Shown: positions 1-25,713, counted from the stretch's first letter. The stretch: DNA of 25,714 nt from a virus (IMGVR_UViG_3300006916_000338:1-25714), one strand, 5' to 3'. Translations and numbers: made by a program. The notes: generated by a model not told the origin, from the letters alone.

Positions 1-90
1 CAAATAAGTGCTGAACACATCTTCTACGTTCAGGGCAGCACCGCCAGCATTACCAGCCGCAGCCTGTAGCATCTTTTTCTTAGTAGCCAT
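1..90 (-). CDS. Fibre-type structural protein, N-terminal fragment (cut by window edge)
   Basis: Only the first 30 residues are present; the gene runs off the left end with no stop. It starts MATKKKMLQAAAG and continues with an Ala/Gly-rich stretch ending in NVEDVFSTYL. The start is well supported by AAGGAG eight bases upstream of the ATG. From memory, similar openings are seen in tail-fibre or LamG-type proteins of marine phages, and its place at the end of the adhesin cluster agrees. The function is therefore inferred mainly from position. It lies 12 bases downstream of the 245-residue fibre gene and is probably in the same transcript. Confidence 0.6.
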   Translation of the reverse strand, partial: MATKKKMLQAAAGNAGGAALNVEDVFSTYL

Positions 91-102
91 TATTGTAGCT
101 CC

Positions 103-840
103 TTATGCTAATGCTTGACCCGCAGTGAAGCCGTACCAGTTAGTCCCGCCATCCCGTGTGGTGAACACGAAGATGTCCTTCGCACTAGCTGTTGCTGTCA
201 GGGTTGGAGCAGTAGCAGCAGGCCAGTCAACACTTGCAGGCCATGTGACTGTGTAGCCAGAAGCTGAAGCATCTTGGATGATCTCGATGGAGAACGTGTA
301 GGACGTGCCGCTTGCTGGTGGGTTGCTGAAGGTGAACGTGGTGTTGCCTGATAGAGTTAAGCTGAAGGAGTTACCATTGTGGCAGTTGACCGCTGGGGAT
401 GTACCAGAGAGGGCAGCGTAGGTTTCGTTGTAGCTACCTGCGATTAGTTCACCTGCTACATCTCCACTATCACTAGCTAAAGTACCTGTAATATTCACCC
501 CTGTGCTAGTTGTGTTTAGCCTCTTGCCATTATCATAGTACAATTCCACAGCATTATCAGCCAAGAACACAGCCATGTTCTCACCTGTTGCACTTTCAAT
601 TTGAACATTGCTTGAGCCTTGAATGTAAAGAACGCCCTGACCTTGGTCACTGATGTAACTATTGCCGCCATCGTGATAAATCTGCAAGTCACTGCTATCG
701 CCTAGCTGTATCTTATCGTTATCTTTTAAGTTAATGCTGCCACCATCAATGTTTACATTATCCTTATCCTGATACGCCATTGTACCAAGGTCAGCATTTG
801 TAGGCACCTGATCGGGGTTTGTTCCAGTAAGTTTAGCCAT
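103..840 (-). CDS. Short tail fibre-like protein (245 aa) sharing modules with the long fibre
   Basis: Probable virion adhesin. The N-terminal part (residues 1-45) carries short repetitive polar segments. A DLQIYHDGGNSYI module follows at about residues 51-63, a motif common in fibre proteins of marine phages. The C-terminal 105 residues form a beta-rich domain with SGNTTFTF, WPASVDWP and a GGTNWYGFTAGQALA end. This domain and the DLQ-YH module are both clearly related to the same modules in the 1134-residue fibre at 4778-8182, so this gene reads like a reduced copy of that fibre without its repeat shaft. The start codon overlaps the upstream stop as TAATG, with GGGAG nearby. It may be an auxiliary fibre or a host-range alternative; no enzymatic motif is visible. 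Confidence 0.75.
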   Translation of the reverse strand: MAKLTGTNPDQVPTNADLGTMAYQDKDNVNIDGGSINLKDNDKIQLGDSSDLQIYHDGGNSYISDQGQGVLYIQGSSNVQIESATGENMAVFLADNAVELYYDNGKRLNTTSTGVNITGTLASDSGDVAGELIAGSYNETYAALSGTSPAVNCHNGNSFSLTLSGNTTFTFSNPPASGTSYTFSIEIIQDASASGYTVTWPASVDWPAATAPTLTATASAKDIFVFTTRDGGTNWYGFTAGQALA

Positions 841-1223
841 TATTCATCTCCCGCCCACTTGCGATACGGTGTCGCTGGTGCATCTACGGTTGGCAGTGAA
901 GCCACCTGTTCATCTGTTAGCTCTTCACGAAGGTTTGCGTGGTAGCCATCAACAGCTTCCATCTCGGCATACTCCATGCCCTCACCGTCAGTCAGCATAG
1001 TGCCTGTCGCACGATACATGGTGCCGATGATGTCGAGCATGGGCGTGTCCGCCATCCACTCGTATGCGCCGCTGGGGCCATCCCACTCAGCGTCTGGCTC
1101 TAAGTCATCAGGACGACTATTGAGTGCATCAGTGGGATCATACTCTTTGTGTGCCAGCGATGCAGCTTCTAGGGCTTCCCAGAGTGCCACTTCGGAGGGG
1201 GCTTTGAGGTAATACGTTGTCAT
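840..1223 (-). CDS. Fibre-associated protein, possible assembly chaperone (127 aa)
   Basis: An acidic, Tyr/Trp-containing 127-residue protein with no membrane segment. The C-terminal stretch DGYHANLREEL followed by ASLPTVDAPATPYRKWAG resembles small proteins often encoded next to fibre genes in alphaproteobacterial phages and prophages. By analogy these may aid fibre folding or cap the fibre, but nothing in the sequence proves this. The start has GGAG nine bases upstream. It lies 3 bases downstream of the large CBM/LamG fibre gene and its stop overlaps the next start (TAATG), so it is co-expressed with both. Confidence 0.65.
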   Translation of the reverse strand: MTTYYLKAPSEVALWEALEAASLAHKEYDPTDALNSRPDDLEPDAEWDGPSGAYEWMADTPMLDIIGTMYRATGTMLTDGEGMEYAEMEAVDGYHANLREELTDEQVASLPTVDAPATPYRKWAGDE

Positions 1224-1226
1224 AGC

Positions 1227-3185
1227 TTATGCCTCCGTCATGGCTTGTAGGGTGGCTGATGAAAGTGCCTTTGGGTATAGGGCAACTTTACTAATGTGCG
1301 CACATTTTCTACTTACAGCGTTAAACGTTCCGTATCCTATGGTTAGTTTAATATCATCAGGAGTTGCCGCTAAGAAGGTGATACCTCCATCGCCATTGTC
1401 AACACTTGATATTTCCCCGTTCATTGCATAGTACACAGGAACAGTCCCAGATGTTCCTTCCCACGAGATTGCTATCCTGTTTTTACCGTTTAAGGGGCTA
1501 ACTCCTGAATTAATATCGCCGCCGTGAGTTGGCTGGTAATACCCACTAGGGCTATTAGAATAACCAACACCAAGATAGTTATTATTATCCTTACCTATTG
1601 AAGCAGCAAATGCAGCCTTTGTGTTGTCTGGGTCATAGATTGCGTCAACTTGGAATGTGCCTTCAATAGTGTTGATGTAGTTCAGCATTGTAGCTTCAAG
1701 GATTTCGGCAGTATCAACCGCCCTAGTCACAGTAGACCCAGAGGTGGGGATGTATGACGTTGGAAAGGAGCCGACTTCTACTTGTGCGCCCCAGACGTAG
1801 ATGCCTGAGTAGCCATCGCCATCATATGAAAGTGAACCATTTTGAGCGCATGAATATACAGCAATGTTTGGGGTTCCTGTTGAGGCTGTTGTTACTGTGA
1901 TAGAGCAACGATACCACCCATTTCCCACATCCTCCATTGAAGTAGGTGGGCTATTCGTTGCCGTCCCGACAGTACCGTTCGACAAATTATACCAAGTCCA
2001 GTAAGAGGTTGATCCGCTGTAGATGTTTAATGCTAAGTAATCACGCTCTGCCTTTTTTGCGAATAAAGACAACGTGTAGGTAGTGGACGCCGACATAGGT
2101 GGGAACGTGACCATGCTGTGGCTAATGCTTGCAGTAGTGTTTTCTTGTATTTTATTGCCAGAAAGAGTGCCGTCTGGAGCAACAACTGCAGCAGTAATTA
2201 GTGAAGAATTTGAAGTAGAAAAGTTAGAAAGATCACCAGACTGCGTCAGCAAATTCGTCCGAGCTTCCTCAATCAGCAGCCCTTTGCTTTCACCTGTCAC
2301 TGGATCGTGGTCAAACCGTGCCTCACCGGATGCCGCTGTTTGCAGCACTGGCTGGTATTTCACGATGGGGCTAGAGGTTGTCGCTGTGTAGGCTGTGGCG
2401 GAACTGCGCTGTTCTAGCTGGAACCCCCAGATAAAGAACTCAGAGCCTGACGCAATGTTAGTAGCTGGCGCACCGTTTCCTGTGCTGTCTGCAAAACTAG
2501 CGTCAACAAATATAGTTTGCGCAGTGCCTGCTGATGTCCCAGAAAACGTTACACGATACCAGCCATTGCCCACATCTGTTGTTGTTGGAGTGCCTTCATC
2601 TGTACCCACTGTAGTGCCGTCTGAAAGATTTATTGTCCTAGCAGATATTGTGTCAATATAACCATTGCCGCTAGTCCTTGACTGCATATTTACACGAACA
2701 TAATCCCAGTTTGACTTCTTCAAGTACACGCTTGCAGTGTACGCTGTTGAGGCCAATCCTACGGGGCTTTGAGCCACGTTTCGATATGGACCTTCAGTTG
2801 TAATCTCAATTGTATTAGCTGTTGTTGTTCCATCAGGCGCAGTTGTTGTATTAGCTGTACTTGTTGTGCCAGAACCTGCCCAAGGCGAAAGTGTCGTATT
2901 CTGACTGTAGGTAATCAAATTCTCCTCTGCCTTAGCCGTGGTCTTACCATCCCAGTAAGTCGCAGTGGAGCCACGGGTAAACGTGATCCGTGGATCAAGG
3001 GTCTTGCTGTTCGCAAAGTCTAGCAGAAGGGACGGGCGAATGTCGGGGAGGTCAGCAGTATTGTCTAGCTGGTTAAGTTCTGCAGCAGATGCAGTGAGGT
3101 CACTAATCTCTGATACACTAATAGCCCCATCAGCCAGTGGATTACCCGCTGCGATTAGGTTTGCTAAGTCTCTTGCTTTTGTCAT
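1227..3185 (-). CDS. Tail fibre with two carbohydrate-binding-like modules and a C-terminal LamG-like domain (652 aa)
   Basis: Predicted receptor-binding adhesin. After an N-terminal helical region (residues 1-50) comes an ITFTRGSTATYWD segment near residue 70. Two homologous beta-sandwich modules follow, at about 95-260 and 317-485. Each contains a DVGNGWYR motif and ends in a WGxQxE strand (WGFQLEQ and WGAQVEV), the pattern of CBM4/9-like carbohydrate-binding folds. A link with EARTNLL lies between them. The last 160 residues resemble a concanavalin A/LamG lectin-like domain. The duplicated module suggests multivalent sugar binding on the host surface. GAGGATAACTAA before the ATG is a good ribosome-binding site. 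The domain names are recognised from motifs and not from a search; a structural adhesin role is likely. Confidence 0.8.
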   Translation of the reverse strand: MTKARDLANLIAAGNPLADGAISVSEISDLTASAAELNQLDNTADLPDIRPSLLLDFANSKTLDPRITFTRGSTATYWDGKTTAKAEENLITYSQNTTLSPWAGSGTTSTANTTTAPDGTTTANTIEITTEGPYRNVAQSPVGLASTAYTASVYLKKSNWDYVRVNMQSRTSGNGYIDTISARTINLSDGTTVGTDEGTPTTTDVGNGWYRVTFSGTSAGTAQTIFVDASFADSTGNGAPATNIASGSEFFIWGFQLEQRSSATAYTATTSSPIVKYQPVLQTAASGEARFDHDPVTGESKGLLIEEARTNLLTQSGDLSNFSTSNSSLITAAVVAPDGTLSGNKIQENTTASISHSMVTFPPMSASTTYTLSLFAKKAERDYLALNIYSGSTSYWTWYNLSNGTVGTATNSPPTSMEDVGNGWYRCSITVTTASTGTPNIAVYSCAQNGSLSYDGDGYSGIYVWGAQVEVGSFPTSYIPTSGSTVTRAVDTAEILEATMLNYINTIEGTFQVDAIYDPDNTKAAFAASIGKDNNNYLGVGYSNSPSGYYQPTHGGDINSGVSPLNGKNRIAISWEGTSGTVPVYYAMNGEISSVDNGDGGITFLAATPDDIKLTIGYGTFNAVSRKCAHISKVALYPKALSSATLQAMTEA

Positions 3186-3197
3186 TTAGTTATCCTC

Positions 3198-3665
3198 TTA
3201 TGCAGGCTTTACAGGCCAGTCAGCCTCATTAAGGTTTGGAAAGTTAGCGTGGCTTGTGATGTCCCTCAGTGCCTGACGATATGTTGCCCATGCTGTAGCA
3301 TCTACGGGGGCGTCAGCTACTTGTGTCCAGTCAGATTGCATTAAAAGATTATCACGCTGCCCACGATTAGACAAAGCAACGCTATCGTCCCACGCCTGTG
3401 TCTCTTCAGCGGTCTTGCTTGATGTAGTCCAGCCAACAGTCCAAGCGCCAGCAACCAAAGATGGTGTAGCTTCCTGTTCAACCTTCTGTGTACGGTCATC
3501 GATGCTAGGCATGTCTGTATATACAACAGTGTATACGCCATAGCTTTCAAGCATCTCACTAGGGATTTGCTTTGGGAACGAGGTGTTAGAGTTGTCACGG
3601 CGTAGTTGCCCTACGGAATAGGGGTATGTATCTACACTACCGCTTGTAATTTTGACGAGCGACAT
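3198..3665 (-). CDS. Tail fibre assembly chaperone-like protein (155 aa)
   Basis: The C-terminal half contains RGQRDNLLMQSDWTQV, APVDATAWATYRQALRDI and FPNLNEADWPVKP. This is the signature of the small phage tail assembly chaperone family (R-LL--SDWTQ--D then W--YRQ-LRD). Members normally sit beside tail fibre genes and help them fold or trimerise, and this one lies between two predicted adhesin genes. The N-terminal 60 residues (MSLVKITSGSVDTYPY onward) match the usual front part of such proteins. AAAGGAG precedes the start. It is cytoplasmic during assembly and probably absent from the virion. Confidence in the family is fairly high, while the fibre it serves is inferred. Confidence 0.75.
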   Translation of the reverse strand: MSLVKITSGSVDTYPYSVGQLRRDNSNTSFPKQIPSEMLESYGVYTVVYTDMPSIDDRTQKVEQEATPSLVAGAWTVGWTTSSKTAEETQAWDDSVALSNRGQRDNLLMQSDWTQVADAPVDATAWATYRQALRDITSHANFPNLNEADWPVKPA

Positions 3666-3683
3666 TTAAGTCTCCTTTTGTGT

Positions 3684-4781
3684 TTAACCGAAGTCTTTGT
3701 AGGCTATGCCAGCACACGTTGGGCCAGATGTGGGAAAACCAGTTAAAACGGGATCAGCATACTTGCTCCCAAAACCTGTTGTGGAGTCAAACTCATATGC
3801 GTTCATTAGTTTGGCGTTGTTTACACCAAGAAATACGACATCTCCCGCTGTATTAAAGGCAACATTAGTGCCTGTGGCACTTGCAGGAGAGGCAGTGCTT
3901 GACAACTCTGAACCTAAAGTGCTTGTCGCATTATCCCACGCAAAAGCCTTTACATAAGGGTAGGTGTTTGTCGCAACAACTATAGCTTTATCATCAGGTG
4001 AAAACTGTGCATCATACGGATAGAAAGAGAACGAGGGTGACACATTTGTCCCAAGCCCCGTTACGTCATTCCATGTATAAATCAATAACCTTTGTGTAGC
4101 TGTGGCAGTCACCGCAGAAAACATTACATGGTCACCAGCACTGTTCCAACTAACACGGTACTGTCCACTTACATTAACCGCAGTGTCTTCTTCTGTACCG
4201 TAGCCAGAGCCAGTCCACTTAATAACTTTAGCACGATTAGATACTGTACCAATCCAATTATCAGTATTAGACCAAGCTATACCTTTTGCCTCTTGCCCAC
4301 CCAAAAAGTTACTTGTGTATCTAGCCCCAAAGCCACTTGAGTCAGACCATTGATAAGTGTAAAAGTTGTTGCTGCTAGTATTTGATGCTAGAGAAACAAA
4401 ACTGCCAGAGTTGCTAAAAGCTAATCCTGTTGCACTACTACCTGAAGGTAGACTTGAGGGGTTACTGTATTTAGCACCCAATGCCCCTCCAGCAAAAGCG
4501 TAAGCAGACACAAGGGGTGAGTCAAAGTGAGTAAACACAATCGCACCACCATCACCTGACCAACCAACCTGACCTTGAGTAGCTGGTCTATTGGGAGGAG
4601 CTGTTGATCCTGCTGGAATATTTTGATACGTCCCAAACCCATCGTTTTTGTTAAACGGTATGACAACAAGAGAGTTCCGTAGGTCTGAAACAGTACCACT
4701 ACAAGCAATCGCAACATACTGCTCTGTTTCACCACCAGCACCAGCCGCTGCGAGTGCGGCAAGTTTACTAATCACACTCAT
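3684..4781 (-). CDS. Beta-propeller-like virion protein (365 aa)
   Basis: The protein consists of about six or seven repeats of roughly 45-55 residues. Each has a pattern like WSxxGxxxxF or AFSxSGxFVS followed by YxWxxxxGFGxxYxxP (for example GGALGAKYSNP, SSGFGARYTSN, TTGFGSKYADP). This is the look of a WD40/YVTN-type beta-propeller. I chose the ATG at 4781 because it overlaps the upstream fibre stop as ATGA; a start further upstream at 4814 would intrude into the fibre gene. The N-terminus (MSVISKLAALAAAGAGG) is helical and may anchor it to the particle. The function is unknown; its position between fibre genes suggests a peripheral adhesin or receptor-binding component. No sialidase Asp-box is convincing. 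Confidence 0.65.
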   Translation of the reverse strand: MSVISKLAALAAAGAGGETEQYVAIACSGTVSDLRNSLVVIPFNKNDGFGTYQNIPAGSTAPPNRPATQGQVGWSGDGGAIVFTHFDSPLVSAYAFAGGALGAKYSNPSSLPSGSSATGLAFSNSGSFVSLASNTSSNNFYTYQWSDSSGFGARYTSNFLGGQEAKGIAWSNTDNWIGTVSNRAKVIKWTGSGYGTEEDTAVNVSGQYRVSWNSAGDHVMFSAVTATATQRLLIYTWNDVTGLGTNVSPSFSFYPYDAQFSPDDKAIVVATNTYPYVKAFAWDNATSTLGSELSSTASPASATGTNVAFNTAGDVVFLGVNNAKLMNAYEFDSTTGFGSKYADPVLTGFPTSGPTCAGIAYKDFG

Positions 4782-7700
4782 GCTAATGCAGCCCCAGCTT
4801 GGAAGCCGTACCATGTAGTACCGCCATCGTAGGTGATAAAGACCAGCACATTAGTCTCGCCACTAGCAGGTGAGTCAGGAGCAGTACCACCTGCCCAATC
4901 AACAGAGCTAGGCCATGTCAATGTATGTGTGCCGCCAGCCGTTACCTTGAGTGTGAAGCCAACAGAACGCCCTGAAGTAACACCAGCAAAAGTGAAAGTA
5001 GTATTACCAGATGTGCTAATAGCAAAGCCACCCGCTGTGTCAGCATCAATGCTAGGCGTAGTGCCTGACAAAGCTGTGTAACCTTCTTGAGTAGTGCCTA
5101 CATAGCCAACGCCAGAAAGGTGGAGGTCTTTGAAGCGGTTGCTTGATGAGCCAAGATTTATAGCAGCATCTCTAGCGCCTCCATTAGTACCTCTTGGTAC
5201 CATATGAGGGCCAGCGGGATCAAATAACAAAGTTACATCAGATTTACCAATGTAAGGTAAGCTAACGTAAGACCCAATACTCCCCACAGTGGTGCCGTCT
5301 TTGTAGAAAGTGGCAAGGTCTCCATCACTGTTAAGGCGTGACAATATTAATGATACATCATTGCTAACGGCTGACCTGACCCCATCAACACTAGATATAA
5401 CAGTGCCAGCAGTATTTACGCTGTTTACGGTTTTACCAACATACAACTTACCGCTGCTGTCAATATCTACATAGGAAGTACCCGTATTAGCGTTCCTAAA
5501 ACTTAAAGTTGAATCAGCATTTACGTTTGATTTACCTATAGCGTAATCGGTGCCGGGGCTTGAGCTAAATACTAAAGACCCAAAACTTGTGTTTGAGCCT
5601 GTAGCGTTTGAGTCTCTTATTGTAGCTAAAGCACCAGATGTTGCTTGTGGAACGCCGTACAGATAGAATAATGAACTTTGGGCTGTAGTACCAATGGTGA
5701 GTTTATCAGAAACCACAGTACCTGTTACGTCAATTCCTGTGGCGTCAGTGTTTAAAACAGTAGTTCCGTTATGTCGTAACTGTGCGCCAGCATCGTTTTG
5801 GAACAAGGCAATCGTTGACCCATCGCCGTCTTCGATGCGAACCTCATTTCCCCTAATCCGCAAGTCGCCAGTGCCTTGCTCATATATATAACTTGTTGAC
5901 CCTGTATGATACACCTGCAAATCCGCAGACGCACCAAAAGTCGCCTTCACGTTGTCGCCGTAAGCCAAGTTACCCGTCATAGTATCGCCAGCTACTTCTA
6001 CGTAACGAGCATCAGCCTGTGACTTAGTATAAGTATCAGCTACTACAAATGTACCATAAGCTACAATGTCTACGCTATCACCTGCTGTAGCACCTGTAGT
6101 CAACACAACGGATGTACCACTTGTAGCAGTAAAGTCTGTACCACTGATAAGCTTCACACCGTTTAGGTATACATCTACATAGCCGGGGTCATATGTAACA
6201 GCAAAGGTAGTCTGACCAGATGTAGCTGTATAAGTCTGACGTTCAGCTGTACCGTTTACAGATGAACCAGCAGCCTGCCATCCAGAGCCGCCGTAGACAT
6301 ACATGATGTCAGTCGTAGTATTGAAGTACAAAGCACCAGTAATAAGTGCATCACCGTCATTGTCTAACGCAGGAGCAGAAGCCTTAGCACCTAAGTAACG
6401 ATCATCAAAGTCATCGTATGATGCAGCGGCATTGGTTGCAGAGGTTGCAGCTGCAGTAGCAGAGTTACCTGCATTAGTCTCACTGGTAGCAGCATTGGTA
6501 GCTGAGGTAGCAGCAGCAGTAGCACTAGCAGAGGCAGCAGTAGCTGAACCAAGTATACCATCTACATATGTTTTAGTTGTAAGGTCAGCAGCATTAGTTG
6601 GGGTGTGAGTAGTTGTAATTGGTGAACTGCCCATATTAATGGAACCTGTCATGGTTCCACCAGTCAGAGCTAAGAATGTAGTGTCAGCATAGTTTTTGGT
6701 TGCTGCGTCCTGTGCTGCAGTAGGATCACCCAAGCCAGTAATCTTACTTGTACCCATAGCAATAGCACCAGTCATAGTGCCACCTGCCAGTGGTAACTTA
6801 GTAGCAATGCTAGTGGTTACAGTGTTTGCAAAGTCGGCATCATCGCCCAGCGCAGCAGCTAGTTCGTTTAGTGTGTCCAGTGTGCCGGGTGCAGAGTCAA
6901 CCAAGTTAGCTACGGAGGTATCTACATACCCCTTAGTTGCAGCATCATTTGTATTAACTGGTGTAGTCAGGTTAGTGATGGTAGCTGTAGTACCAGCATT
7001 CATATTCAACGTACCATTAACCGTTACGTCTTGGAACGATGATGTACCTGTAGAAGTTACGTTACCTGTCAGATTACCTGTGACATTACCAGTTACATTT
7101 CCAGTGACGTTACCTGTTACGTTACCAGTAAGTGGACCTACAAAGCTAGTACCTGTAACGGTTGTACCTGTTATAGCTGCAGGACTTGCTGCACCAATAA
7201 TAGCACCGTCAATAGCCCCACCATTAATATCAACAGTCGCCAAGGTGGCTTGTCCAGATGTCGATACAGTCGTAAAGCTACCAGCAGCAGCACTAGAAGC
7301 ACCAATAACTGTACCATCAATATTACCTGCGTTAATGTCTACTGTAGCTAGTGTAGTTGTACCAGTAGCTGACAGTGTAGTGAAAGCACCTGTAGAGGGA
7401 GTAGAAGCACCAATAGTGGCATTATCAAGAGTACCACCGTTAATGTCTGCAGTAGCTGCAGTAAGACTTGTGTTGGCTGCAAGTGTGGTAAATGTACCAG
7501 CTACAGGTGTAGTGTTACCGATAACTGTATTGTCTGCTGCACCTGAGTTAATGTCGGCAGAAGTAATTGTTGCTGTGCCTGTGAAAGTAGACGTACCTGT
7601 TACAGCAAATGTACCGCCTACTGTAGCATTACCTGAAGCATCCATAGTGGTAAAGTCTGCAGCAGCGGGAGTAGTCCCACCGATAGCTGTACCATCTATT

Positions 7701-23609: not shown

Positions 23610-23903
23610 TGTCAATACTTAATTACAAATCTCTCGCCTAAAGGCAATTTTCACTTACGTATATACTACATGTAAGTGTTGTACTGTACGTGTATACTTA
23701 TATGTTTATATAGTTAAGTATAATTATAAGTAAGTATATATACATTTAACTGTTTCACTGTACGTGTATCACTTTAAGTGACCCTACCCTAACACCTAAC
23801 ATATATAGTTTTACACATTCTACAATACATGTCAACCCCTAATCGTATAGTGTGTATGTATTGTGATATATGTTACAGCTTTGTTACACGTATGTTACTT
23901 ACT

Positions 23904-23964
23904 ATTTGTGATCACGTATTAATGCCCCTACCCAAACTGTATTATACCATTTGTGATCACGTAT
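23904..23964. repeat. Direct repeat ATTTGTGATCACGTAT, two copies
   Basis: The 16-mer occurs at 23904-23919 and 23949-23964, exactly 45 bases apart (about four helical turns). Each copy has the 8-bp palindrome GTGATCAC at its centre and a half-site TGTGA, which recalls CRP/FNR-type operators. The second copy runs straight into a TATAAT (23962-23967). Likely paired operator for a regulator of the divergent genes. Confidence 0.55.
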
Positions 23965-24069
23965 AATAGGTCCACATCGGCCCTATGTACATGTAAACCA
24001 GTATATATGTAATGTGGTTAACAGTGATATTTCCTGATCTGTGTATTTGTACGTATATACTAACGTATA

Positions 24070-24096
24070 CCCCCGGCATGGCCCCTGCCCACCCCC
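24070..24096 (-). promoter_or_regulatory. Canonical G-quadruplex motif on the minus strand
   Basis: On the plus strand, C-tracts of 5, 4, 3 and 5 bases (24070-24074, 24082-24085, 24088-24090, 24092-24096) are separated by 7, 2 and 1 bases. The minus strand therefore meets the G3+N1-7 rule for an intramolecular G-quadruplex. It is a sharp G/C island in otherwise AT-rich DNA, just upstream of the rightward genes. Confidence 0.5.
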
Positions 24097-24153
24097 TCCT
24101 CAACGTGCAATTCTGCGCATAATGCAAGGTCATGACGTGTGTTGAAAGCAAAT

Positions 24154-24450
24154 ATGCCATCACATTCCACCAACATACCGAAGGTATACATCAAATCAAA
24201 CACTTACTTGTCTACGACAACTGTTATGCAATCAGTTGCCACCATTTATGGTGATAGAAACAGGGAGATTTTCACATCGAAGATGTGTTGTAGATGCCGA
24301 GTACAAATACTATACCCCACCATCAGAGATGGTCATGTCACATATCCACAAGCCGTGCATAGCTCTGCCAATGGTCATTTGAAGTGTCCAACATTGGACG
24401 ATACCATATACAAAGTATATGACAAATATGCCACACAAATGGTGACCTAA
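24154..24450 (+). CDS. Doubtful open reading frame, orphan (98 aa)
   Basis: From the ATG at 24154 the frame runs MPSHSTNIPKVYIKSN to ATQMVT without a stop; a GTG at 24139 would add five residues. It contains CCRCR near residue 44 and another cysteine in LKCPTLDD. The ribosome-binding site is poor, codon usage is not clearly phage-like and I recognise nothing. The same DNA carries six short perfect inverted repeats, so it may instead be a structured non-coding stretch. The LKCPTLDD part encodes a palindrome that recurs in the downstream genes. Confidence 0.3.
   Translation: MPSHSTNIPKVYIKSNTYLSTTTVMQSVATIYGDRNREIFTSKMCCRCRVQILYPTIRDGHVTYPQAVHSSANGHLKCPTLDDTIYKVYDKYATQMVT
24386..24399. repeat. 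Palindrome GTCCAA-CA-TTGGAC, copy 1
   Basis: First of four copies of GTCCAA-YR-TTGGAC. With its flanks it is the exact reverse complement (17 of 17 bases) of the fourth copy at 25682-25695 and its flanks. It lies within the doubtful 98-residue frame. Confidence 0.65.
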
Positions 24451-24545
24451 TCCAAGCTGGAGCCTCGCATGAGTTTAGCGCACGAACTTCGTAATTACTT
24501 GTAATTACTGCAGTCATCCGTGAAACGGCCTGCACCGAGGATCAC

Positions 24546-24569
24546 GTCATGAGAAACCATGACTTGACA
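24546..24569 (+). promoter_or_regulatory. GTCATG inverted repeat next to a perfect -35 box
   Basis: GTCATG (24546-24551) and CATGAC (24558-24563) flank six bases, and TTGACA (24564-24569) begins at once after the second arm. The best -10 at normal spacing is poor (TACTAG at 15 bases), so the promoter may require an activator bound at the repeat, or the repeat may be a repressor site. The fused form GTCATGAC is also found at 24129-24136. Confidence 0.45.
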
Positions 24570-24598
24570 ACTTATACTATACTCTACTAGTTTATAAA

Positions 24599-24638
24599 GA
24601 GAACTATATCTCACTATTTGTGAGAGATATAGGTTCTC
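24599..24638 (+). promoter_or_regulatory. Strong hairpin in the leader of the first rightward gene
   Basis: GAGAAC-TATA-TCTCAC (24599-24614) pairs with GTGAGA, then TATAG, then TTCTC (24620-24638) across a TATTT loop. This gives 16 base pairs with a two-base and a one-base bulge. It ends 36 bases before the ATG at 24675 and has no T-run, so it is not a terminator. It could stabilise the mRNA, bind a regulator, or act as an operator in the DNA. Confidence 0.6.
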
Positions 24639-24674
24639 TCATATAAACAGAGTATAGATAAAGGGACTACCGAA

Positions 24675-25247
24675 ATGACAAATTCAGCAACAACAAAAAC
24701 TACCGAAGGTACTACAATCTCAGCTCTTGTAAAGGAAGGCAAAGCCTTAGCATCAATCTGGAAACAGACTAACAGTCTGAAACATACCATCAAAGCCTCT
24801 GGCTTCGACACCAGACTTGGCAAACTCTTACAAGAGTTGAAAGCTCAATCCACTTTGGATTCCGGTCAGATTAGTCGTCAAACTCTGACGATGTACGGCA
24901 TCAATATCATTGATCGTCGTCGTCGTTCTGAAGCTCTGTGGTTCGTTGAAAACGAAGTAGAGTGCCGCAAGTTCATCGAAGATGGTAAGTTCAAAGGTAC
25001 TTCACTTACTGCTTTGCAGAAAGCAATGCGAGATGCAGCTAAAGCTGATGAAGAAACCACCGAAGGTGAAACGTCCAATGTTGGACAGTCTGATGCAGAA
25101 CAGCCAAAGGCTGATACAACTAAGCCTCGTATCTCTCACAAAGTGATGGTCAATACCATCATTGCTCAAGCCGAATTGAATGAGCTTGATCTTGAAGAGA
25201 TCATCACTGATCTGATGGCTGCACTTGAAAAGCGTCAAGCTGCATGA
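24675..25247 (+). CDS. Rightward early-type protein of unknown function (190 aa)
   Basis: No family recognised. It is hydrophilic and mostly helical. Residues 1-110 form one block with LVKEGKALASIWKQTNSLKH, DRRRRSEALWFVENEVECRK and SLTALQKAMRDAAKADEE. An acidic, Thr/Gln-rich linker (about 122-148) joins it to a helical C-terminus (VMVNTIIAQAELNELDLEEI). RRRR near residue 78 might contact nucleic acid. AAAGGG lies about nine bases before the ATG. The coding DNA is exceptionally rich in small perfect inverted repeats, many within codons for these helices. It is the first gene of an ATGA-coupled trio opposite in direction to the structural genes, so an early host-takeover or regulatory role is a reasonable guess. 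Confidence 0.75.
   Translation: MTNSATTKTTEGTTISALVKEGKALASIWKQTNSLKHTIKASGFDTRLGKLLQELKAQSTLDSGQISRQTLTMYGINIIDRRRRSEALWFVENEVECRKFIEDGKFKGTSLTALQKAMRDAAKADEETTEGETSNVGQSDAEQPKADTTKPRISHKVMVNTIIAQAELNELDLEEIITDLMAALEKRQAA
25073..25086. repeat. Palindrome GTCCAA-TG-TTGGAC, copy 2
   Basis: Lies inside the 190-residue gene, where it encodes part of TSNVGQ. The reading frame differs from that of the other copies, so conservation is at the DNA or RNA level. Confidence 0.65.
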
Positions 25248-25444
25248 GATACAAAGTATCTTCCTACAAAGCTAGTGTTGAGCAGGATATGCTCGACACA
25301 GCTATGGCACAGTTCTGTGAACTGGCAGAAGAAATGAACCGTCCAACATTGGACACTTTGATTGCCAACACGTTAACTCCAGAGGAGTTAAAGAAACGTA
25401 TTCCCACATTAATCCACGATAGTGGATGGAAGGATTTAACATGA
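25244..25444 (+). CDS. Small rightward protein of unknown function (66 aa)
   Basis: The ATG overlaps the stop of the preceding gene by four bases (ATGA), and its own stop overlaps the next start in the same way. The product is a soluble helical protein opening MRYKVSSYKASVEQDMLDTA, with EEMNRPTLDTLIANTLTPEE in the middle and a short C-terminus ending GWKDLT. I recognise no family. NRPTLDTL is repeated as NRPMLDTL in the mini-frame at 25654. At least five dyads lie in its 201 bases, among them the longest of the array (25373-25391). Confidence 0.7.
   Translation: MRYKVSSYKASVEQDMLDTAMAQFCELAEEMNRPTLDTLIANTLTPEELKKRIPTLIHDSGWKDLT
25341..25354. repeat. Palindrome GTCCAA-CA-TTGGAC, copy 3
   Basis: Lies inside the 66-residue gene, encoding part of NRPTLDTL. 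The flanks (AACC before, ACTTT after) are the same as at copy 4, while the two central bases are inverted. Confidence 0.65.
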
Positions 25445-25602
25445 CCTATGCTGAAATTCGTATTGCCATTGCCGCCTATGTAGGTTGCAGCGTAGCTCTG
25501 GCCTATCTGTTGCTGGTATCCTTTGGATACATTCAAGAGGATGGCTATGGAATATACATTCCAGATGTTGGTGGCTACCATATTTCCCCTCTTGACAAGT
25601 AG
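25441..25602 (+). CDS. Small single-pass membrane protein (53 aa)
   Basis: Starts by ATGA overlap with the preceding gene and ends with TAG at 25600-25602. One hydrophobic helix spans about residues 6-30 (IRIAIAAYVGCSVALAYLLL), followed by a polar, Gly/Tyr-rich tail (QEDGYGIYIPDVGGYHISPL). There is no signal peptidase site, so it would stay in the inner membrane with the tail probably outside. Candidate roles for such an early phage protein include superinfection exclusion or inhibition of a host membrane process; the sequence does not decide. The end of the gene contains the -35 box of the next promoter. Confidence 0.65.
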   Translation: MTYAEIRIAIAAYVGCSVALAYLLLVSFGYIQEDGYGIYIPDVGGYHISPLDK

Positions 25603-25651
25603 TATTACATAGTTATATAACACTGATACTTTAGTGAAAGTGTTATATAAC
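25592..25651 (+). promoter_or_regulatory. Promoter with a 13-bp inverted repeat operator
   Basis: TTGACA (25592-25597) is followed after 16 bases by TATATA (25614-25619), or after 18 by TATAAC. GTTATATAACACT (25612-25624) and AGTGTTATATAAC (25639-25651) form a perfect 13-bp inverted repeat with a 14-base spacer. Each arm holds the palindrome GTTATATAAC, and the two palindromes are 30 bases apart, close to three helical turns. The left one covers the -10 box and the right one lies just after the start point. This is the geometry of a repressible promoter. It faces right, out of the window. Confidence 0.6.
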
Positions 25652-25653
25652 AT

Positions 25654-25713
25654 ATGTTTAATACTAACACTGAAACAAACCGTCCAATGTTGGACACTTT
25701 AAAAGGATGCTAA
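25654..25713 (+). CDS. Possible leader mini-frame (19 aa)
   Basis: ATG at 25654, directly after the operator, to TAA at 25711-25713: MFNTNTETNRPMLDTLKGC. No good ribosome-binding site precedes it. It repeats NRPxLDTL from the 66-residue protein and contains the fourth palindrome. AAAGGA near its end could be the RBS of a gene beyond the window edge. It may be a leader peptide, or just an untranslated leader with the palindrome. Confidence 0.3.
   Translation: MFNTNTETNRPMLDTLKGC
25682..25695. repeat. Palindrome GTCCAA-TG-TTGGAC, copy 4
   Basis: Lies just before the end of the window, within a possible 19-codon frame and upstream of an AAAGGA that could serve a gene beyond the edge. Confidence 0.65.

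Follow-up and report, generated by a model that had tools for sequence, protein, structure and literature searches.

At the start of the early region of HMO-2011-type podophages, we identified a dense array of short, perfect and mostly dissimilar inverted repeats, which lies at one conserved genome position, runs through non-coding and coding DNA and favours one strand. The explanation that fits best, to which we give a probability of a little under one half, is that the + strand becomes single-stranded in this zone through a rightward origin or an R-loop, and that its hairpins owe their perfect arms to template switching and their persistence in part to selection. The array was found in the window, the whole 25,714-base stretch of viral DNA that was analysed (a virus record of linear class), which is a fragment of an HMO-2011-type podophage. 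It encodes a terminase large subunit with 80-84% identity to those of the Roseobacter phages CRP-345 and CRP-1 and the Puniceispirillum phage HMO-2011, which have genomes of ~54-55 kb. The leftward genes of the window are structural, and the rightward ones, at its right end, are the counterparts of the genes opening the early region of CRP-345 and HMO-2011. Locus L009, identical to the window over the array region, extends the sequence rightward. The features are listed in Table 1.

Table 1. Features of the array region and its left flank, in window positions
Feature	Position	Strand	Remark
Mini-hairpin array	24240..25695	+	26 perfect dyads (arm 6-8, loop 2-5), 22 dissimilar; position conserved in relatives
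Element A	24218..24253	+	Invariant CAACTG-9nt-CAGTTG hairpin, then hairpin A (24240-24253)
Element B	24486..24514	+	Outer pairs ACT/AGT, internal loop TC/TGC, hairpin B (24491-24508)
Hairpin CACATC-GAA-GATGTG, non-coding	24273..24287	+	Two-sided changes among relatives
Hairpin ACCATC-AGA-GATGGT, non-coding	24319..24333	+	Loop region exactly inverted, L015 vs L017
Hairpin CATATAC-AAA-GTATATG, non-coding	24405..24421	+	Perfect dyad
Repeated palindrome GTCCAACATTGGAC, copy 1, non-coding	24386..24399	.	
Repeated palindrome, copy 2, in linker-coding part of 190-aa gene	25073..25086	.	
Repeated palindrome, copy 3, within 66-aa gene	25341..25354	.	
Repeated palindrome, copy 4	25682..25695	.	
First early gene, 190-aa helical protein	24675..25247	+	11 dyads inside
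66-aa reading frame	25244..25444	+	5 dyads inside
58-aa reading frame	25426..25602	+	2 dyads inside
Long leader hairpin just upstream of 190-aa gene	24599..24639	+	HMO-2011: different long hairpin, same place
AT-rich intergenic stretch, leftward/rightward gene boundary	23616..24150	.	No tight-loop dyads

A dyad was defined as a perfect inverted repeat with arms of at least 6 bp and a loop of 2-5 nt. An earlier note on this DNA had claimed about 24 of them and, in five leftward stretches read by eye, a lower density; counted mechanically, there were 26 in the array and 27 in the remaining 24.2 kb of the window (1.1/kb). Codon-preserving shuffles, set beforehand as the refutation test, left the excess in the array standing, with the late genes near expectation. 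The 190-aa gene contained 11 dyads compared with 0.98 expected (maximum 4 in 500 shuffles), the 66-aa gene 5 compared with 0.32, and the non-coding part at 24150-24674, when shuffled, 7 compared with 0.42. In the control genes, observed and expected numbers were 1 and 1.4 (terminase), 3 and 2.9 (portal) and 3 and 1.35 (capsid), and the polymerase genes were also near the shuffle expectation. Homologues of the 190-aa gene were similarly loaded, with 9 dyads vs 0.88 expected in HMO-2011 and 12 vs 1.2 in locus L018. Chance and base composition as the cause of the dyads are ruled out by these shuffles; the observation is real, and stronger than first stated.

Three-base loops predominate, as the earlier note had it, in 11 of the 26 dyads, with GAA, AAA and AGA common. 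Its statement that the dyads differ in sequence holds for 22 of the 26, the other four being copies of one palindrome, GTCCAAYRTTGGAC (called here the GTCC palindrome). Apart from this palindrome, a single mobile repeat is ruled out by the sequence dissimilarity. Dyads do occur in coding and non-coding DNA alike, with the correction that the whole left part, 24150-24674, is non-coding and carries the best conserved hairpins.

An array at the same place is present in the cultured phages HMO-2011, CRP-1 and CRP-345 and in ~70 non-redundant metagenomic relatives, at ~6-7.5 kb upstream of the terminase in those whose contigs span the region. Pattern searches added many stretches to the set of relatives, giving 72 non-redundant regions, and as the sequences compared are related, the counts from them are not independent. 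Mean dyad density in the 72 regions was ~1/kb for kilobases leftward, ~4/kb in the 500 bp before element A and 8-14/kb over 1.25 kb rightward of it, and was near background by ~4.5 kb. The array therefore has a polarity: its left edge is sharp and sits at the conserved non-coding element, and it fades rightward over ~4 kb. CRP-9 has a weak array at most, and none was found in CRP-2, CRP-3, CRP-207, HTVC033P, the Manatee Spring phage and Rhizobium phage RHph_N3_19, some of these records being covered in part. The first 50 kb of phage N4 contained no array of comparable kind. A mild rise in perfect dyads was seen at 1-5000 of N4 (locus L109), with 7, 4, 4, 3 and 5 per kb compared with ~2.3/kb overall, far below the array in the window.

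The hairpins of the array share rules rather than letters. With the GTCC palindrome excluded, loops of 3 nt were enriched 20-fold (104 vs 5.2), loops of 2, 4 and 5 nt five- to nine-fold, and longer ones about 1-3 fold, while arm length peaked at 6 bp and stopped at 7-8. The closing pairs of the 3-nt loops in the 72 regions were C-G in 131 cases, T-A in 69, A-T in 18 and G-C in 14, that is, 5' pyrimidine-purine 3'. C(GNA)G was enriched 21-fold at 4-bp arms and 113-fold at 5-bp arms, and G-C closed stems of 4-5 bp were not enriched. DNA hairpins with cGNAg triloops or with pyrimidine-purine closing pairs have unusual stability, and GNA mini-hairpins are cited as extraordinarily stable in several papers. 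Loop size, closing pair and GNA preference in the array are the rules of DNA mini-hairpins. There is also a strand bias, with GNA loops outnumbering TNC loops on the + strand by 67:8 in the non-coding part and 123:33 in the genes, compared with 22:21 outside the array. Within the whole array the ratio was 190 vs 41, with GNA on the non-template strand of the early genes, which indicates that the strand that matters is the + strand. A single-stranded stage, one of the causes offered in the earlier note, is the best fit to the DNA-type rules and to the one-strand bias; the exposure itself we infer. The cumulative skew shifts at the array region, and the direction of transcription shifts there too; an origin call from the skew was rejected because the two are inseparable.

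The way in which the hairpins change between relatives points to their source. Compensatory change was looked for in hairpins whose arms differ between relatives: both versions were perfect in 260 of 802 comparisons (32%), compared with 62 of 2586 (2.4%) in control DNA, which was drawn from elsewhere on the same contigs and has genes of mixed orientation. The both-perfect share was 63% in the non-coding part and 12% in genes (about fivefold), and cases in which one arm had given way to the other's complement were only modestly enriched. Loops were found inverted as well. Of 24 comparisons in which the 3-nt loops had no position in common, 11 were exact inversions (0 of 15 in control DNA), and among 5-nt loops with three differences, 8 of 43 were exact reverse complements (0 of 60 elsewhere). 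Inversions between identical or near-identical flanks include GTAACC-AAA/TTT-GGTTAC in loci L126 and L132 and AAAGCC-AGA/TCT-GGCTTT in L224 and L125. A further case, ACCAC-CTTCA/TGAAG-GTGGT, distinguishes L015 from L017, two loci with 97% identity across the region.

Template switching leaves inverted spacers (loops) and homogenised arms (PMC8604942), and the loop inversions together with the two-sided arm changes are therefore read as its footprint. It is very probable that template switching is the process shaping these hairpins. The perfecting of quasi-palindromes by template switching, suggested in the earlier note, has direct support in the loop inversions and two-sided arm changes, which are enriched in the array and rare elsewhere. 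However, no array is present in CRP-2, a phage of the same group as the array-bearing CRP-1 and isolated on the same host strain, which makes a general effect of polymerase or host an unlikely cause. The inversions in the array occur on arms of 5-7 bp, shorter than the ~10 bp or more of spacer inversions in a yeast study.

It could be argued that the early leader and first messages are simply strongly folded RNAs, serving stability, translation control or evasion of RNA-targeting defence, for which template switching merely supplies the stems. The non-template strand has the sequence of the RNA, the array begins close to where the early unit starts and thins out over its length, and the stems covary among relatives, as is looked for in structured RNA, although covariation alone is no proof of a functional RNA. 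Template switching can also create and maintain RNA hairpins (PMC8794818). With C-G closing and arms of 4 or more, GNRA loops numbered 27 compared with 9 for other GNNA, and 4-nt loops showed some G-T excess. Single-pair breaks leaned to G-T (64 vs 30; control 193 vs 168), also within genes (42 vs 19, against the same control), giving gene hairpins a mild G-T excess. G-T is, however, one of the more stable mismatches in DNA too, and this lean therefore does not decide between DNA and RNA.

Against folded RNA, loops of 3 nt outnumber those of 4 nt, and those of 2 nt are frequent. One-mismatch stems with 3-nt loops were near chance and did not favour G-T (G-U in RNA) over A-C; in the cleanest class (purine or GNA loop, pyrimidine-purine closing, arm 6) there were 129 perfect stems, 13 with G-T, 12 with A-C and 39 others. 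Two sites each had more than 20 stems, among which the simple hairpins included no more than one likely G-U version. A search of the curated RNA families of Rfam gave only sub-threshold chance hits, and a known RNA family was set aside for want of a curated match. When folded against shuffles, 24200-24660 gave z = -6.2 (+) and -5.6 (-) as DNA and -4.7 (+) as RNA, and the genes at 24675-25600 gave a z of about -12 as DNA with 20 shuffles only. A depletion of one-mismatch stems, once suspected, was not clearly upheld against control DNA. Structured early mRNA, another cause named in the earlier note, is thus the weaker option, set back by the one-mismatch stems and helped by the breaks within genes; we consider it unlikely, and the hairpins probably form at the DNA level.

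Another possibility is a purely mutational hotspot, in which the + strand is exposed in replication and template switching builds hairpins continuously, without selection. The loop inversions and arm homogenisation are what it predicts, broken pairs show little type preference, and hairpins in genes mostly turn over between relatives; many of the gene hairpins may well be by-products tolerated by the proteins. Hairpins A and B fit it poorly. Among relatives, 22 different perfect stems were seen for hairpin A, one likely T-G exception aside, and ~23 for hairpin B, the latter together with a few longer ones that have bulges or interior loops; in the outer pairs of element B, GTT/AAC and ATT/AAT also occur. 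Both hairpins keep their exact place between conserved motifs even as far as HMO-2011. Since this place is held even between phages in which identity of the neighbouring protein is down to 26%, both hairpins are likely to be functional. The fivefold stronger compensation of the non-coding part, compared with genes, also argues against a process free of selection, and a pure hotspot seems no likelier to us than folded RNA.

The adjacent 190-aa protein has a homologue in all array-bearing phages examined, with identities of 26-100%. It had no PHROG or Pfam match, its predicted fold (mean pLDDT 75.8, pTM 0.57) had no significant match in the PDB, and no known initiator or repressor was matched by the family or fold search. 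No bacterial or prophage copies of its gene were found in a search of genome contigs.

In the preferred reading, single-strand exposure with template switching and partial selection, the + strand, which is the non-template strand for the early genes, would be exposed from the conserved non-coding element rightward. It could be either the displaced strand or the lagging template at a rightward origin, or else the strand that an R-loop heading the early operon displaces; this link to an origin or R-loop is tentative, and we hold it with somewhat less confidence than the reading as a whole. The exposed strand would fold into hairpins of ~6 bp with 3-nt loops. Replication across a hairpin could then switch template, making both arms complementary in one event and sometimes inverting the loop, and selection would hold the hairpins of the non-coding element in their fixed positions, where they may serve for loading or priming. 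If a rightward fork came from the AT-rich left flank, the + strand would be the non-transcribed strand and the lagging-strand template at once. In a yeast assay on highly transcribed DNA in the absence of RNase H2, template-switch events needed transcription and were ~10-fold or more commoner when the non-transcribed strand was the lagging-strand template (PMC3820800).

A stronger form of this reading, which we think rather improbable, is that the first 1.5-4 kb of the early region is an encoded single-strand zone. Its dozens of mini-hairpins would act together, and what keeps their shape would be recurrent template switching, not just point mutation and selection. They may jointly act as priming or helicase-loading sites, or control coating by single-strand-binding protein.

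Dyads could also be double-stranded sites for dimeric DNA-binding proteins, and for the repeated GTCCRAYRTYGGAC palindrome this is certainly plausible. Further copies of it lie at L009:11283 and L009:12258, and in relatives the copies extend from element A to ~+4 kb, with 508 of 510 to the right of element A. Its arms are uniform in 82 of the 91 loci that have three or more copies, being GTCCAA in most phages and GTCCGA in others. Since the arms are uniform within a genome and the copies confined to the region, a sequence-specific dimeric protein would leave such a pattern, and the palindrome is, judged by its sequence, probably an operator or iteron, with no candidate binding protein found among the proteins searched. 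Lambda-type origin iterons lie within the initiator gene and L5-type operators are repeated. The GTCC palindrome resembles both in having several dyad copies in and around the first early genes, and differs in the spread of its copies over up to 4 kb and in the lack of a match between the 190-aa protein and any known initiator or repressor. An immunity operator and a replication iteron are both possible, since an integrase is encoded by HMO-2011-type phages and integration at a tRNA-Met has been demonstrated for CRP-3 (PMC6918029). As an account of the whole array, however, dimeric sites are very unlikely, because the other dyads differ in sequence, share loop-length and closing-pair rules instead of letters, and have a strand bias, unlike a symmetric duplex site.

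Hairpin promoters for an injected, N4-like phage RNA polymerase, which the earlier note had raised, are the least credible explanation. The N4 polymerase reads the template strand, and N4 early promoters have a 5-7 bp stem and a 3-nt purine loop of GNA type, which the array resembles with its ~6-bp stems and 3-nt purine loops. However, the array consists of dozens of sites, also inside genes, and its purine loops are found on the strand that does not template the early genes. No polymerase was matched among the large late proteins tested, a subset of the proteins of HMO-2011 and CRP-345; very large ones of 1246 aa in CRP-345 (L005:40843-44580, -) and 1128 aa in HMO-2011 (L007:16930-20313, -) had no PHROG or Pfam match.

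We know of no prior description of such an array, and none was found among the open-licence papers searched. Single-strand origins, primosome assembly sites and single-strand promoters of plasmids work as folded single strands of non-coding DNA at a zone of entry or replication, but they are one or few structures of conserved sequence, unlike the array. Known template-switch (quasi-palindrome) mutations in E. coli, yeast and RNA genes (PMC8604942, PMC3820800, PMC8794818) share with it perfect arms, inverted spacers, short spacers and multi-base coding changes. They are, however, isolated events at scattered places, and spacer inversion in yeast involved arms of more than 9 bp, whereas the phage array has dozens of ~6-bp hairpins in one 1.5-4 kb zone, conserved in a lineage and strand-biased. 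Perfect, dissimilar inverted repeats within protein-coding genes are also described for Nematomorpha mitochondria (PMC6649704), where they reach 284 bp in mitochondrial genes, in contrast to phage dyads of ~15 bp in one zone that includes non-coding DNA. The array is a natural region in which the secondary structure of DNA appears to shape coding and non-coding sequence alike, with dozens of hairpins at one conserved place in the genome. If our reading is true, sequence alone would mark the place and strand of single-stranded DNA during infection by a widespread marine phage group, and the region would offer a natural system for template switching at high density, which is otherwise studied as rare events.

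Two further observations concern the non-coding DNA around the left edge. At 24512-24560, to the right of hairpin B, there is a strongly conserved motif, GAAACGRCAGGCGCAGAGGATCACG in most relatives, which is recognisable even in HMO-2011. The AT-rich stretch left of the array, a candidate unwinding or promoter region, contains ATTTGTGATCACGTAT twice, at 23904-23920 and 23949-23966, and these could be regulator or promoter sites.
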